From assembly GCA_018266835.1 (NCBI GenBank), contig JAFDZP010000007.1, forward strand, positions 62,001 to 126,000: DNA of 64,000 nt, given 5' to 3'. Below, piece by piece: positions 21,384 to 31,696 of the stretch. Position 1 is the first letter of the stretch. Each line of letters opens with the position of its first letter. The position numbers were made by a program, and so were the translations under genes. This DNA comes from Bacteroidota bacterium (GTDB taxonomy: Bacteria; Bacteroidota; Ignavibacteria; Tepidaquicellales; Tepidaquicellaceae). The notes under the pieces were generated by a model. That model saw only the letters and a program-made list of their open reading frames with translations, searched no databases and had not been told where the DNA came from.

Positions 21384-23444
21384 ATGAAAAAAGTCTTCAC
21401 ACTAATATTGCTTTTTGCAATTTCCCTTTCTTATGCATTTATTTATAAGTCCGATAGCTCAGCTGCAAACAGCATAGTTTTACAGTTTGTAACTCATAAT
21501 GGCTATGGCAATAATCTTTATATAGATAATGTCACAGTTGGCCCTAAATATGACAGAGATGTTAAGGTAACTTCATTTATCAATCTTCCCTCAGATACAA
21601 TTTATACACCACAATCTAGAAGATTAATATTAGATAATTTACAAATATTAGTAACAAATGTCGGAAAACTTGCAGTTGATTCCATAAAAGTCCATTTAGA
21701 TATTCCGGAAATCGGATATTATTGGTATTTCAATATACCATTAGCGCAAAATGAAATTAAACTTTTAAGTTTTCCTGAAGCTGTTTTTGCTCATAATAGA
21801 ACATATCACCCTATACTTTACGTTTCTGATTCTGCTGATAAAAATCACTCTAACGATACTATAAGACAAAGCTTTGGCTACTATCTTGGAGCACCTAAAA
21901 AAGTTTTATTTGAAGAATTCACCAGCGCAACAAGTTTATCCGCATCTATTAATAATCCATCATTAAATAATTTTGTAAATTCAAAATTCGACAGTATTGT
22001 TGCTATAAATTATCATCTTGGATTTCCGGCACCCGGCAATGATTCACTCTACTTAGCCGATACAATTCAGAATAAAGAAAAAGCTGATTACTATAATATA
22101 GTTGCTGTACCAAAACTAATTTTTAACGGAGCTTACTTTTCCAAGTTTCCGTTCAGTACTGAAAATCTCAAGTCTTCATTTGATACATTAAAAAATATAG
22201 GTTCTCCTATCAGTATGTCAGTTACCGATGCACGACTGGCTGGAGATACGATTAGCTCTAATATTACAATTAATGTTCTTGCCCCCGTAATGGCAGGCGA
22301 TTATTATCTCCGTGTAAACGCAATTGAAAGGAGAGTTTCCTACGTTAATCCTCCGGGAACTAATGGTGAATCTGTATTCTATGATGTATTCAGGGAGGCA
22401 GTTCCGAATACACAGGGAATTTCAATTCCAACAGCAATTGGTACATATAATTATAATGTAAAATATAAAAGAAATCCTGTATGGGTGGATTCAATGGTTT
22501 ACACTGCAGCATTTGTTCAGAATGATAGAACATTTGAAGTCCTTAACTGTGCGAAATCACGTTCAGGTGTTTATGAAAAATTAAAACATTACAATTTAAC
22601 CGATGCTTTACCGGATTTTAAAGCAGGAAAATTCAAGCAATCACAATACGGAAAATTCGGTTCTAAACAATTTACAAAACATTCAGGAAGAAGTATTCTT
22701 GATACAACAGCTACAGATTTTTATTTAGAGCAATTTGAATCACAGGGACTTCCGTATGACTGGACACTTGCACATCAATCGGAATTATTCACTTTTCAAA
22801 ATGTTTATAACAGCGGAATAAACGGACCATCATTTCCGGGCAACGGTTGTTTGAAAATGAATTTTTATGATAATACAGATATTGGACAGATGGATACGCT
22901 TTACTCCCCTATAATTTATGGAGTCACATCCCAGGATACAATAAGGTTTGATTATGCTTATGCAGGTTATCTGTACAACGAAGGTGACAGTCTCTATATA
23001 AATATCTCCACAGACGGCGGACTTACTTTTCCAAGAAATATTTTTCACAGAGGCGGAATAGGATTAGCAACTGCCTCAAGTTCTACAGTGGCATTTGTAC
23101 CGGCATTGAGAACTGAGTGGAGAACTATTTCTCAATCATTGCAGGGAATTATACTGGACAGGTATTCAGTTCCGGTTGCAAATGAATTTACACTTTATCA
23201 GAACTTTCCTAATCCGTTTAATCCGTCTACTAAGATTTCATTCAATCTTCCTGCAGAATCAAAAGCATTATTAATTATTTACGATATTTCAGGCAGAGAA
23301 GTAAAACAATTGGTGAACGAAATTCTCGCGGCAGGTTTGCATGAAGTAAATTTTAACGGTGAATCTTTATCTTCTGGTATATATTTTTACAAACTGATAA
23401 CCCCCGGATTTACTCAATCCAAAAAAATGGTTTTAATTAAATAA
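21384..23444 (+). CDS. T9SS-secreted protein with Omp28-like thioredoxin-fold domain lacking the CxxC pair
   Basis: The 686-residue protein has a signal peptide, an Ig-like domain (about 55-165), an Omp28-related thioredoxin-like domain (about 170-400), a beta domain, and a T9SS type A tail (LYQNFPNPFNPSTKISF ... KKMVLIK). The thioredoxin-fold part aligns with the next gene product: VLFEEFTSATSLSASINNP here against VERFTSSTCGPCASNNP there. The active-site CGPC is replaced by SLSA (184-187), so redox activity is probably lost while the fold (PPGTNGE, PVWVD blocks) is kept. It follows 8 bases after the small membrane protein and is 26 bases before its paralog. Confidence 0.87.
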   Translation: MKKVFTLILLFAISLSYAFIYKSDSSAANSIVLQFVTHNGYGNNLYIDNVTVGPKYDRDVKVTSFINLPSDTIYTPQSRRLILDNLQILVTNVGKLAVDSIKVHLDIPEIGYYWYFNIPLAQNEIKLLSFPEAVFAHNRTYHPILYVSDSADKNHSNDTIRQSFGYYLGAPKKVLFEEFTSATSLSASINNPSLNNFVNSKFDSIVAINYHLGFPAPGNDSLYLADTIQNKEKADYYNIVAVPKLIFNGAYFSKFPFSTENLKSSFDTLKNIGSPISMSVTDARLAGDTISSNITINVLAPVMAGDYYLRVNAIERRVSYVNPPGTNGESVFYDVFREAVPNTQGISIPTAIGTYNYNVKYKRNPVWVDSMVYTAAFVQNDRTFEVLNCAKSRSGVYEKLKHYNLTDALPDFKAGKFKQSQYGKFGSKQFTKHSGRSILDTTATDFYLEQFESQGLPYDWTLAHQSELFTFQNVYNSGINGPSFPGNGCLKMNFYDNTDIGQMDTLYSPIIYGVTSQDTIRFDYAYAGYLYNEGDSLYINISTDGGLTFPRNIFHRGGIGLATASSSTVAFVPALRTEWRTISQSLQGIILDRYSVPVANEFTLYQNFPNPFNPSTKISFNLPAESKALLIIYDISGREVKQLVNEILAAGLHEVNFNGESLSSGIYFYKLITPGFTQSKKMVLIK

Positions 23445-23470
23445 TCTTAATAAAAAATAAAAGCGGGAAA

Positions 23471-25333
23471 ATGAAATTCAAATTTTTATTGAATTTGGTA
23501 CTGCTCATCTCTGTAACATGTATTTTTAATACAACATTTGCAGGAGATAGAACAGTATTAGTCGAAAGATTTACCAGCTCCACATGCGGTCCTTGCGCAT
23601 CAAATAATCCTACAGTTGATGCATTCATGAATTCACTTACAAGTTCTCAGATAATGGGATTAAGCTTTCACATGAACTGGCCTTCTCCGGGAAATGACCC
23701 TATGTATATGTACAATATACCGGATAATACAACTAGAAGAACTTACTATAATGTTAATGCTATCCCACAGCTTCAGATGGATGGTATCCTGACACTTGAG
23801 CCTAACTATTCAAATGCACAGCTTACAAATGCGTTCAATACCAGAACTGCCCTGTTAAGTCCTGTTACAATCATTGTAAGACAAACAGATATCGGAACTG
23901 ACAGTATGCAGGTACTTGTAACAGTATATTGCGAAACTGCAATTGCAACTCCTTCAGTTACAATGCAGGTAGCAATTATGGAAAAGCTCATTCAGTATCC
24001 TTCTCCTCCCGGAACAAACGGCGAAACATCATTCCACACCGTAATGAGAAGAATGCTTCCTAATGCAAGCGGTATTACTTTTGACTTAACACCGGGCACA
24101 AGAAAAGATTATGAATTCAGAATAAAAAAAGATGCACTTTGGAATCCTGCACAGATTCAGGCTGTAGCTTATGTTCAGACATCAAACAAAGAAGTTTTAA
24201 ATTCCGCCTGGAAGCTTTCAGATTTTTGTTTACTTCCAAATACTGCTTTCAAAGTTGTAAACAGCGGCACATCACAAAATGCCAATTATAAAATTGCTGT
24301 TCCGTATATTGCAGACGGATATAATTCACCTGTTACATTCTCTGCTTCAGTAGTAGGTAATCCTGCGGGAGTTTCAGTAACTTTCCCAAGCGGTAATACT
24401 TTGAGCAATTTCCCTGACTCAGTATCAGTAAACGTTGCTTCGACAGGCAGTGTACCTGCAGGAATCTACCAGGTTGTAATTACAGGAACAAACGGTCTTG
24501 GAAAATCTCATAAAGTTTCTGTCAACTATAATATCGGCAGAAGTTTTGTAAATGTAGGAGCAAATAAACCCAGCCTTTTATTTAATGTAGATGGCAATGC
24601 ATACGGTGCTTCACAATTATTCACATGGGATTTAAATTCAAATCATAACCTGAGTGTAACAACACCACAGGTATTTGCTACTACACGATATGTATTCCAG
24701 AACTGGAGCAACGGCAGCACGGATACTGCTCAGACTGTTAATATTAATACAAATATTTCGAGCTATGTCGCTAATTTCAAAACTCAGTATAAATTAACAG
24801 CAAATACAAATCCTGCCGGAATGGGAGTAACAATTCCGTCCGCAGGACAATTCTGGGATGAGAATTCAAGTGTAAGTCTTAGTGTATCTGCAACTCAGGT
24901 TTCTTATAATGGAAAGACCTATTACTTCCAGAGATGGCTTGGAGGCGGAAACAATTCTTATACGGGAACAAATCCTTCAGTCTCTTTAAATATGACTAAC
25001 CCAATTAATCAGATTGCGATTTATGATACTATTGATGTCGGTATTTCTAATTTAGGAACAGGAATACCTGATAAATATAATTTATATCAGAATTATCCCA
25101 ATCCTTTCAACCCGACAACAAATATAAAATTTGATATTCCAAATTCTTCATTCACTTCTTTGAAAGTTTATGATATAAACGGAAGAGAAGTCGCAGAATT
25201 ATTAAGCCAAAACTTACAGGCAGGAAGATATGAATATTCTTTCAATGCATCTGCTTTATCAAGCGGAGTTTATTATTTTAAACTCGATGCAGGAGAATTT
25301 AATCAGATAAGAAAAATGATACTGGTGAAATAA
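23471..25333 (+). CDS. T9SS-secreted Omp28-like thioredoxin-fold protein with CGPC motif
   Basis: The 620-residue protein has a signal peptide (to about residue 24) and an Omp28-related domain (about 27-255) with a CGPC motif at 39-42, immediately after VERFTSST, as in thioredoxin-like reductases. Later come the blocks NVNAIPQLQMDG and PPGTNGETSFHTVMRR. Two Ig-like or repeat domains follow (ATTRYVFQNWSNG and YYFQRWLGGG repeats, about 360-515). The T9SS type A tail LYQNYPNPFNPTTNIKFD ends KKMILVK-like (RKMILVK). An extracellular or surface disulfide-exchange role is inferred from CGPC. A bidirectional terminator follows. Confidence 0.88.
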   Translation: MKFKFLLNLVLLISVTCIFNTTFAGDRTVLVERFTSSTCGPCASNNPTVDAFMNSLTSSQIMGLSFHMNWPSPGNDPMYMYNIPDNTTRRTYYNVNAIPQLQMDGILTLEPNYSNAQLTNAFNTRTALLSPVTIIVRQTDIGTDSMQVLVTVYCETAIATPSVTMQVAIMEKLIQYPSPPGTNGETSFHTVMRRMLPNASGITFDLTPGTRKDYEFRIKKDALWNPAQIQAVAYVQTSNKEVLNSAWKLSDFCLLPNTAFKVVNSGTSQNANYKIAVPYIADGYNSPVTFSASVVGNPAGVSVTFPSGNTLSNFPDSVSVNVASTGSVPAGIYQVVITGTNGLGKSHKVSVNYNIGRSFVNVGANKPSLLFNVDGNAYGASQLFTWDLNSNHNLSVTTPQVFATTRYVFQNWSNGSTDTAQTVNINTNISSYVANFKTQYKLTANTNPAGMGVTIPSAGQFWDENSSVSLSVSATQVSYNGKTYYFQRWLGGGNNSYTGTNPSVSLNMTNPINQIAIYDTIDVGISNLGTGIPDKYNLYQNYPNPFNPTTNIKFDIPNSSFTSLKVYDINGREVAELLSQNLQAGRYEYSFNASALSSGVYYFKLDAGEFNQIRKMILVK

Positions 25334-26775: not shown

Positions 26776-26812
26776 TAAAAAAAACCTCTTCCCGATTTTC
26801 TCAGGAAGAGGC
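26776..26812 (-). terminator. Rho-independent terminator of the metal-handling locus
   Basis: On the minus strand the hairpin CCTCTTCC/GGAAGAGG is followed by eight T residues. It lies 31 bases downstream of the HMA gene stop and ends that operon before the phosphoesterase gene. Confidence 0.88.
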
Positions 26813-26842
26813 TATTATTATTTAAAATAAAATATAACAGTC

Positions 26843-27292
26843 TTATATTTTTTTTGCCTGCTTTACCTTAACTGCATTATCGGAAAGACTGACATTGCCT
26901 GAAATTGAAATCTTGTCGCCGTTAGAATATTCGCTGCTAAGATTTTTCAATATTAAATCAGGAGTATTTCCCGTGACTAAATGATTATTTTCATATGTTC
27001 CTTCAGCTTTGATAAGAATATCTCTTACACTGAAACCGCCGTCTGTCACACCGTCTTTTAATTTATTAATATCAATCTTTGCATCTTTCTTAAATGTTAT
27101 AGTAAAGGTCGCTTTTACCAAATCAGCTTTAACTGACTTTACAAAATCCATTGAACGGAATTCTTCTTCAACACCTTTAGCGCATAATGAGCATGTAAAT
27201 CCGTCAACTCCAATGGTAGCCTGAGTAACCTGTGAATATACCATTGTAAGCGGTGACAAAAGAAATAATATAAGTACAGATATTTTTTTCAT
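26843..27292 (-). CDS. Periplasmic heavy-metal-associated (HMA) domain protein
   Basis: The 149-residue protein has a signal peptide ending VYSQ (about residue 21). An HMA fold follows with the metal-binding pair GFTCSLCAKG (Cys 34 and 37) and the expected strand/helix order (VKSVKADLVKATFTITFK, then KLKDGVTDGGFSVRDI). The C-terminal 50 residues are a small beta domain of unknown type. Copper(I) is the usual metal for such domains, so it may pass copper to or from the cysteine-rich neighbour. The start codon directly follows the stop of the upstream cysteine-rich gene with no gap (TAAATG), so translation is probably coupled. Confidence 0.88.
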   Translation of the reverse strand: MKKISVLILFLLSPLTMVYSQVTQATIGVDGFTCSLCAKGVEEEFRSMDFVKSVKADLVKATFTITFKKDAKIDINKLKDGVTDGGFSVRDILIKAEGTYENNHLVTGNTPDLILKNLSSEYSNGDKISISGNVSLSDNAVKVKQAKKI

Positions 27293-28069
27293 TTATTTAT
27301 TATCAGTCTTTTGTTCGTTATCGTTTTTATTCATATATTTCGAAGGATTTGCTTCAAAATCCTTTATGCACATTTTACAGCAAAAATAATATTTTGTTCC
27401 TTCATATGTAGTATAAACAGTATTTTTGGCCGGTTCGTTCATTACAGGGCACATTAAATCTTTTGCATATTTCATTGGTTCGTTTTTGAAGCTTTTTACA
27501 CAGTCATTACAGCAGAAATTATAATCTTTTCCAAGATAATTGAATACTACTTCTTTGCCTTTTGGAATTGATTCACCTGATACTACACAAACTGAAGCGC
27601 TGTCATTTGAAATTCCGCCAGCATTGTTTTTATCTTTGCAGCATGAAGCACTTGCGCATTTACCATTATCACAGCAGTTATTATCTTTGCAGCCCTTGCA
27701 TCCACCGTCTTTGCAGCAGTTTTCAGCGCATGTGCAGTTTTCACATTTACAGTCAGTGCAGCAGCAAGCAGCAGCTACTACAACAGCTCCGCCTGAAGTT
27801 TTCTTTGAGTCACAGCTTGTCTTTGAATCGCATTCCATTTTTGAATCGCAGCATGATTTTGAATCACCGCTTTTCATTGCACAATTATCCATTGTGCAGC
27901 ATCCGTTATCTGCGCAGCATGAAGCACAGTTGCCTTCAGAACAAGTACAGCTTACACATACACAATTTGTACAGCAGCATGATTTATCTTCACTGTATGA
28001 ATTACTATACATAAATGCAATAGCTACCATTGCTAAAGCAAGAGCGCTTAAGAATAATTTCGTTTTCAT
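27293..28069 (-). CDS. Exported metallothionein-like, cysteine-rich protein with two YHS domains
   Basis: From the ATG at 28069 the protein is 258 residues (an ATG 30 bases upstream would add an unneeded tail). After a signal peptide or anchor (residues 1-22) comes a region of about 120 residues packed with Cys. Two related modules start CCCTNCVCVSCTC (about 32) and CCCTDCKCENCTC (about 103), with CC pairs and DSK spacers between them. The C-terminal 90 residues hold two YHS-type units, each Cys...NFCCNDCVKSF or YFCCKMCIKDF, a soft-metal-binding fold. I count 41 Cys in total. The likely role is periplasmic metal binding (copper, silver, zinc or similar). It sits between the HMA gene and another short Cys-rich gene. 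Confidence 0.88.
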   Translation of the reverse strand: MKTKLFLSALALAMVAIAFMYSNSYSEDKSCCCTNCVCVSCTCSEGNCASCCADNGCCTMDNCAMKSGDSKSCCDSKMECDSKTSCDSKKTSGGAVVVAAACCCTDCKCENCTCAENCCKDGGCKGCKDNNCCDNGKCASASCCKDKNNAGGISNDSASVCVVSGESIPKGKEVVFNYLGKDYNFCCNDCVKSFKNEPMKYAKDLMCPVMNEPAKNTVYTTYEGTKYYFCCKMCIKDFEANPSKYMNKNDNEQKTDNK

Positions 28070-28125
28070 TTGAGTTAAATTTAAATTTAGAAAATTCATT
28101 AAAATTGTCGATAAATTTTAATTCT

Positions 28126-28533
28126 CTAAATTCTAAGAACGCACTTGATAGTATTAATATCTTCGTTCGGAGGCGAGTGGAATGTATTTATTATAGAGTT
28201 AGAAAAACTTTTAAAGTTTTCATTACCTATTGGTAAAATTTCAGCAGGAGTAAATATCTTTAAAGTTTTTATTGTATTGGTAACTGTAAAGTTTTGTGTG
28301 AGTTCAGCGGGTTCGGTGTTAGCTTCTTTCATTTCGCAAACACAGTGGCTTACAAGTTTCACTTCTTTTTTATTTGCGCAGCAGCTTTTCGTTTCCGTTT
28401 TGTGCTTGCAGCAGCAGTCAGTCATGTCCTTCATAGAACAAAAAACACTGCTTACAACAGAGAGGTTTACTAGTGTAAACACTGCTGTTACAACCAGAAT
28501 TAAAATTTTGTTATATGATGGTCTTTTTATCAT
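28126..28533 (-). CDS. Short exported cysteine-rich protein
   Basis: The 135-residue protein has an N-terminal hydrophobic segment (residues 10-30, ending VVSS) and a Cys-rich part (VFCSMKDMTDCCCKHK, SCCANK, HCVCEM: nine Cys between about residues 32 and 67). A low-complexity tail follows with an FHSPPNEDI motif. The combination of CC pairs and a late PP motif recalls small Bacteroidota proteins annotated near copper-handling genes, though I am not certain of the family. It precedes the YHS/Cys-rich gene by 56 bases on the same strand, so all three genes likely share an operon. An open frame on the opposite strand is a shadow. Confidence 0.75.
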   Translation of the reverse strand: MIKRPSYNKILILVVTAVFTLVNLSVVSSVFCSMKDMTDCCCKHKTETKSCCANKKEVKLVSHCVCEMKEANTEPAELTQNFTVTNTIKTLKIFTPAEILPIGNENFKSFSNSIINTFHSPPNEDINTIKCVLRI

Positions 28534-31239: not shown

Positions 31240-31485
31240 ATGTCAAAAAAAAAATTAAATTTATTTAAAAATTATATGAAAGAAATTAATTATGTAATTT
31301 GGAATGAAGGCAAACACTATGTAGCTCAGTGCCTTAATGTGGAGATTTCTTCTTTTGGTGATAGCGTAGATGAAGCCAGAAAAAATATAAAAGAAGCTAT
31401 TGAACTTTACTTTGAAGGAGAGTCAGATTTAGAAATTCAAAATATTGATTCATTATTTCTTGGTAAGGAACTGGTAAATGCCTAA
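31240..31485 (+). CDS. hicB: HicB-like antitoxin
   Basis: The 81-residue protein matches the HicB fold: YVIWNEGKHYVAQCLNVEI, then FGDSVDEARKNIKEAIELYFEG. The usual DNA-binding domain after this fold is absent. A second ATG at 31276 would give a typical start (MKEINYV), so the first 12 residues may be untranslated. It precedes hicA and overlaps it by 8 bases, forming a type II toxin-antitoxin pair with the antitoxin gene first. Confidence 0.87.
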   Translation: MSKKKLNLFKNYMKEINYVIWNEGKHYVAQCLNVEISSFGDSVDEARKNIKEAIELYFEGESDLEIQNIDSLFLGKELVNA

Positions 31486-31696
31486 AGAATACTCCTCTAA
31501 AGAAATCGAAACTGTTCTAAAGAAAATAGGATTTGTTTTTATTTCTCAAAAAGGCTCACACGGCAAATTTAAAGATGATAAAGGTAAAACTGTAATTTTA
31601 CCTATGAATAAAAAAGAAATACCTTTTGGAACATTCCGCAGCATCTTGCGCCAGGCAGGAATTGACTTAAATGAATTTATAAATAAACTTTCTTAA
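31478..31696 (+). CDS. hicA: HicA-like mRNA interferase toxin
   Basis: The 72-residue double-stranded-RNA-binding-fold protein has the catalytic-type His in SQKGSHGKF (His 28), followed by strand VILPMNKKEIPFGTF and the final helix SILRQAGIDLNEFI, all typical of HicA/YcfA. HicA toxins cleave mRNA and are blocked by HicB binding. It is encoded directly after and overlapping hicB. Confidence 0.9.
   Translation: MPKEYSSKEIETVLKKIGFVFISQKGSHGKFKDDKGKTVILPMNKKEIPFGTFRSILRQAGIDLNEFINKLS

Follow-up and report, generated by a model that had tools for sequence, protein, structure and literature searches.

A candidate extracytoplasmic soft-metal buffer encoded by a three-gene operon with a metallothionein-like YHS protein in Ignavibacteria

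What would a bacterium gain from exporting three small, cysteine-bearing proteins encoded side by side, and which metal would they handle? The question is raised by a predicted operon of three adjacent minus-strand genes at 26843-28533 of the window, the 64,000-nucleotide stretch of DNA analysed here, which belongs to a genome of 4.0 Mb in 8 contigs (99% complete). The coordinates of the genes and of the features within them are collected in Table 1.

Operon layout and the three products

Genes 1 and 2 are separated by 26 bp, and genes 2 and 3 abut (TAA ATG). A hydrophobicity scan found a single hydrophobic segment in each of the three proteins, located at the N-terminus and with none further on, which fits the expectation for Sec export. 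The first-pass annotation had described three adjacent exported proteins on one strand, the last two genes touching at TAAATG and a strong terminator at the end, and the gene coordinates, the N-terminal segments, the junction itself and the hairpin with its T run all agree with this layout. Gene 2 encodes 258 amino acids if started at the ATG at 28069, a start that fits the relatives because these begin at MKT(K/R); the length of 258 residues given earlier corresponds to this start, and the count of about 41 cysteines proved exact. Pfam searches recognized an HMA domain in gene 3; in gene 2 they detected YHS in two stretches, and gene 1 yielded nothing convincing.

Table 1. Features of the operon, in window coordinates; residues of gene 2 are counted from its first ATG
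Feature	Position	Strand	Remarks
Gene 1, short exported Cys-rich protein (predicted)	28126-28533	-	135 aa, 9 Cys, C-terminus ...VLRI
Gene 2, exported metallothionein-like and YHS-YHS protein (predicted)	27293-28099	-	268 aa from first ATG, 41 Cys
Likely Sec signal peptide of gene 2	27992-28069	-	residues 11-36, MKTKLFLSALALAMVAIAFMYSNSYS; hydrophobicity peaks at residue 15, with no further peak downstream
Metallothionein-like region	27620-27991	-	residues 37-160, 33 Cys, no Phe, Tyr, Trp or His
First Cys module	27941-27979	-	residues 41-53, CCCTNCVCVSCTC
Second Cys module	27728-27766	-	residues 112-124, CCCTDCKCENCTC
YHS domain 1	27458-27592	-	one Cys, then FCC-x2-C
YHS domain 2	27326-27457	-	one Cys, then FCC-x2-C
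Gene 3, exported HMA protein (predicted)	26843-27292	-	149 aa, GFTCSLCAKG site, C-terminal beta extension
Predicted metal site GFTCSLCAKG	27173-27202	-	VDGFTCSLCAKGVE block invariant in 6/6 aligned homologues
Intrinsic terminator closing the operon	26783-26813	-	13-pair hairpin, then T run, z -5.25

Two other features of the surrounding DNA were observed. At 31240-31696, two small adjacent genes (81 and 72 aa) resemble, by eye, a HicB/HicA toxin-antitoxin pair. The genes at 21384-25333 encode a pair of large exported proteins, each with a sorting tail at the C-terminus (LYQN-PNPFNP) and the second also with a CGPC motif; both keep their order beside the operon in the same-genus genome G001 (L046).

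The product of gene 3 belongs to the HMA family (PF00403, 34.1 bits against a cut-off of 24.8, E=3.6e-8) and carries the CxxC site, as proposed for it in the first pass. It stays below the curated NCBIfam cut-offs for MerP (23.8 against 92.55 bits) and CopZ (43.1 against 91 bits). In a profile search of solved structures ATP7B, CopZ and CopA ranked first, and the AlphaFold model (pLDDT 86) superposes on Cu(I) chaperones for some 68 residues, with the C-terminal beta extension lying outside these matches; there is also resemblance to MerP and ZntA domains. In an alignment of gene 1 proteins (n=25), cysteines 32, 51 and 64 and the C-terminal isoleucine are invariant. Of the 39 loci examined, 32 have a homologue or look-alike of gene 1 close to the YHS gene, ending in isoleucine and usually in LRI; the filter used for this count does not pick up the window's own gene. 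Assignment of gene 1 to HYC_CC_PP (NF047658) was rejected, with 11.3 bits (E=0.35) against a cut-off of 28; two of the 25 homologues match this family at all, and the similarity is confined to the general pattern.

A metallothionein-like region fused to two YHS domains

Cysteine makes up 15% of gene 2, compared with a background of 1.0% in the open reading frames of the window, giving a P of about 1e-34 for 41 cysteines in 268 residues; in the one-pass list of these frames, gene 2 is the most cysteine-rich by a factor of four. The duplicated CCCT-x-C-x-C-x-x-C-T-C modules reported earlier are present, and the two YHS-type domains said to follow them are recognized by PF04945 as two stretches (61.2 bits against a cut-off of 30.3, E=9.5e-17). 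The Pfam metallothionein profile matches neither gene 2 nor six homologous or stand-alone Cys-rich proteins. For the YHS core, the model consists of two beta-hairpin/helix units (pLDDT 85); the Foldseek hits, to TRASH/L24e-like chains and to monooxygenases that bear a YHS domain, were weak, as were those of a profile search of the PDB.

The first-pass annotation had itself raised the possibility that the cysteine-rich region is a low-complexity artefact. Compared with G001, 28 of 30 aligned cysteines in this region are kept, against 36 of 75 other residues. Synonymous differences greatly exceed non-synonymous ones (pS 0.81, pN 0.24, against G001), an excess found in all three genes. The retention of cysteines together with the synonymous excess indicates that gene 2 encodes a selected protein and is not an artefact; its cysteines are clearly under purifying selection. 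Among the relatives of gene 2, the number and spacing of cysteines differ greatly: the linker between signal peptide and YHS domains contains between 0 and 33 of them in the 39 loci, the window protein having the maximum, and the conserved core of the YHS-YHS family consists of the cysteines of both YHS domains.

The YHS-YHS protein was found in 26 of 29 genomes of the window's family and in all 15 of the order's other family. The HMA family is present in 13 of the 29 family genomes and absent from the other 16, so that the HMA protein is not obligatory. The order short Cys protein, metallothionein-like protein, HMA protein was found in eight genomes (G000, G001, G004, G014, G013, G022, G103, G138), four of which have a stand-alone metallothionein-like gene without YHS. 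In G013 and G022 the operon encodes the short Cys protein, an exported 17-Cys protein of 114-119 aa that lacks YHS, and the HMA protein, with YHS-YHS encoded elsewhere in the genome. In G103 and G138, from another family of the class, the product of the middle gene is small, exported and Cys-rich: it has 60 aa including 9 Cys in G103 and, counted from the second ATG, 51 aa including 7 Cys in G138. Multicopper oxidase genes lie near both operons. The earlier caution that the three genes might not be conserved together is thus answered by an association kept across genera and in another family.

Gene 2 of the window resembles a fusion whose two parts are found as separate genes too, the Cys-rich parts being taken as homologous by position and composition, not by alignment. 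The occurrence of the metallothionein-like and YHS parts both fused and separate (L076 and L079 included) argues for a functional link, and, together with the kept three-gene order, gives the strongest support for joint action of the parts. No relative was found among the viral contigs searched; the matches on plasmids, mostly rhizobial ones, were weak and confined to the YHS part, and several carry a P-type ATPase annotation. In another family of the class, an exported protein of 270-280 aa (QELFIQTEPASNMPA) follows an HMA gene (L206 332-1168, L207 419-1237), and Pfam gave no convincing match for it.

Neighbouring genes and the choice between metals

Among the 39 loci, an HMA gene lies near the YHS gene in seven. 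CusABC-type genes adjoin the YHS gene in L055, whose CusB has HMBD and HMA domains, and in L060, and a gene for a copper ATPase does so in L062 (TIGR01511, above cut-off). The earlier statement that no efflux gene is adjacent therefore holds for the window copy, which has no adjacent RND or P-type ATPase gene as in Cus/Cop efflux operons and is not flanked by a gene for a transporter, sensor or TonB receptor, but not for some relatives, which have CusABC or the CopA ATPase. The window's genome also has copper-type genes away from the operon: one for a CPC ATPase lies near C2 233.6 kb and one for a multicopper oxidase near C2 1.26 Mb. The operon could thus supply or relieve their products. On C4 of the same genome, a protein that joins an HMA domain to a MauE-like membrane domain is followed by a His/Asp/Met-rich exported protein (L098 7444-9747), possibly another metal locus.

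Other neighbours bear on copper supply as opposed to detoxification, with the module storing copper for respiratory cuproenzymes, or taking it from a TonB-dependent importer, under scarcity. A gene for a TonB-dependent receptor lies within 6 kb of the YHS gene and on the same strand in 23 of the 39 loci, and this receptor family has an invariant ACCDL motif whose CC pair stands before or in the plug. The YHS gene adjoins genes resembling alternative complex III in L049, L057 and L062 and those of cytochrome bd in L058 and L084, and the TonB receptors OprC and NosA have been linked to copper uptake (PMC7558416). The CxxxM-HxM motif of OprC, however, is not evident in the receptor family, and a search that was positive in G014 did not detect this family in the window's genome. 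Moreover, cytochrome bd contains no copper, and the efflux genes (Cus, CopA) adjoin the module too, so that we regard the supply reading as unlikely. Independently of this reading, the ACCDL receptor at L059 3143-5368 and its 15 homologues, which usually adjoin a YHS-YHS gene, may form a metal receptor family.

A buffer for zinc, cadmium or mercury in place of copper appears less likely still. HMA and Cys-rich sites bind these metals as well, bacterial metallothioneins of the SmtA type bind zinc, the HMA protein is similar to MerP and ZntA domains, and in G022 an RND/P-ATPase locus of unassigned metal adjoins an HMA gene; against this, copper proteins make up the top profile hits and those neighbours that could be assigned, and no mer or ars gene was seen in the loci read, part of whose neighbours were searched. 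A redox or structural role in the envelope, with cysteines forming disulphides and metal being incidental, would accord with the great variation in their number and spacing and with a periplasm that can be oxidising; periplasmic free thiols are oxidisable, and part of the gene 2 cysteines could thus be disulphides. We nevertheless consider this role improbable, given the CxC and CC spacings, the region without aromatics or histidine, the association with HMA and Cus/CopA, and a linker whose cysteine count ranges so widely beside a conserved YHS core. Bufferins chelate copper, are rich in cysteine and leave the cytoplasm by Sec (PMC12452194), and in these respects bufferins and oxazolins resemble gene 2, which might then be a precursor peptide whose cysteines an MNIO enzyme converts to copper-binding heterocycles. 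This reading was rejected as highly improbable since no MNIO gene (PF05114) was found in the window's genome at E<=0.01, with two of the control genomes positive; there was likewise no match to bufferin Pfam families, and no MNIO partner was recognized beside related loci.

Proposed function and comparison with known systems

We consider it somewhat probable that the operon encodes an extracytoplasmic soft-metal buffer with its chaperone, most likely for Cu(I), and Ag(I) would bind as well. The structure matches of the HMA protein suggest this, in combination with biochemical support for a copper response of the YHS domain of the M. phlei adenylyl cyclase (PMC4626032). The selective retention of cysteines between species, the gene order kept in relatives, the Cus, copper ATPase, TonB receptor and multicopper oxidase genes near the module in relatives, and the CPC ATPase and multicopper oxidase genes of the window's genome also speak for it. 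Against it stand the window copy's lack of an adjacent transporter, sensor or receptor gene, the missing receptor family in this genome, the oxidisable thiols, the binding of Zn, Cd and Hg by HMA and Cys-rich sites, and the family genomes that have no HMA protein. The "periplasmic copper or silver sponge plus delivery protein" of the first-pass annotation is thereby retained as the likeliest reading, through the similarity of the HMA protein to CopZ and CopA and the Cus, CopA and multicopper oxidase neighbours in some relatives. The export signals seen in the sequences, the domains, the conserved cysteines and the kept gene association are observations; from these we infer the identity of the metal, its binding, the direction of transfer and the role of the short protein as follows. 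The product of gene 2 would be exported by Sec, and its 33-Cys region would take up several metal ions in thiolate clusters, with the two YHS domains adding two further cysteine sites, maybe for exchange. The exported HMA protein would carry ions one by one between the gene 2 store and further proteins of the envelope. Accessory metal binding or docking is the probable task of the short Cys protein, and the metal would then reach efflux systems (CopA/CusABC in relatives) or cuproenzymes.

The proposed role resembles that of the extracytoplasmic metal sponges Csp1, SilE and bufferins, and gene 2 belongs to none of those families that were tested. With SmtA, BmtA and MymT it shares a dense, aromatic-free array of CxC, CxxC and CC; to our knowledge these bacterial metallothioneins are cytoplasmic and have no export signal, whereas gene 2 has such a signal and a YHS fusion, and lacks the Pfam metallothionein match. 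SilE and PcoE have the multi-site extracytoplasmic binding proposed here, and bind metal via His/Met, not Cys. The YHS/TRASH proteins, among them CopA N-termini and exported tandem YHS proteins of Aminicenantes and Acidobacteriota, share the domain and its tandem arrangement; unlike gene 2, the Aminicenantes and Acidobacteriota proteins examined have no large Cys-rich region. Gene 3 is like the MerP/CusF-type chaperones in being exported and single-site, with the HMA fold as in MerP, but lies far under the MerP cut-off, has the extra C-terminal beta extension and keeps other partners. Csp1 and NGO1701 are likewise exported and Cys-rich, with a high predicted Cu(I) capacity. Csp proteins are preformed four-helix bundles and Csp1 has a Tat signal (PMC7558416), in contrast to the metallothionein-like region of gene 2 behind a Sec-type signal and fused to YHS, and gene 2 had no match to the Csp copper storage family in Pfam or NCBIfam. 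In the open-access papers searched nothing was found on YHS combined with metallothionein or on exported or periplasmic bacterial metallothioneins, which is weak evidence of absence.

A wider reading, possible but doubtful, is that Ignavibacteria have a modular extracytoplasmic metallothionein system for acquiring and holding copper at the envelope. Here an exported metallothionein, interchangeably stand-alone or fused to YHS, would have its capacity tuned by gain of Cys modules, as the range of linker cysteines suggests. It would cooperate with an exported chaperone of the HMA type and, for the majority of relatives, with a TonB receptor of its own that bears the CC motif. If this is true, thiolate-cluster storage can run in the envelope, with a chaperone of its own and across a whole family, and buffer capacity seems to evolve through added Cys modules. 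Several uncharacterised families in a poorly studied class of Bacteroidota, among them the short Cys protein and the CC-motif TonB receptor, would moreover gain a function open to testing.
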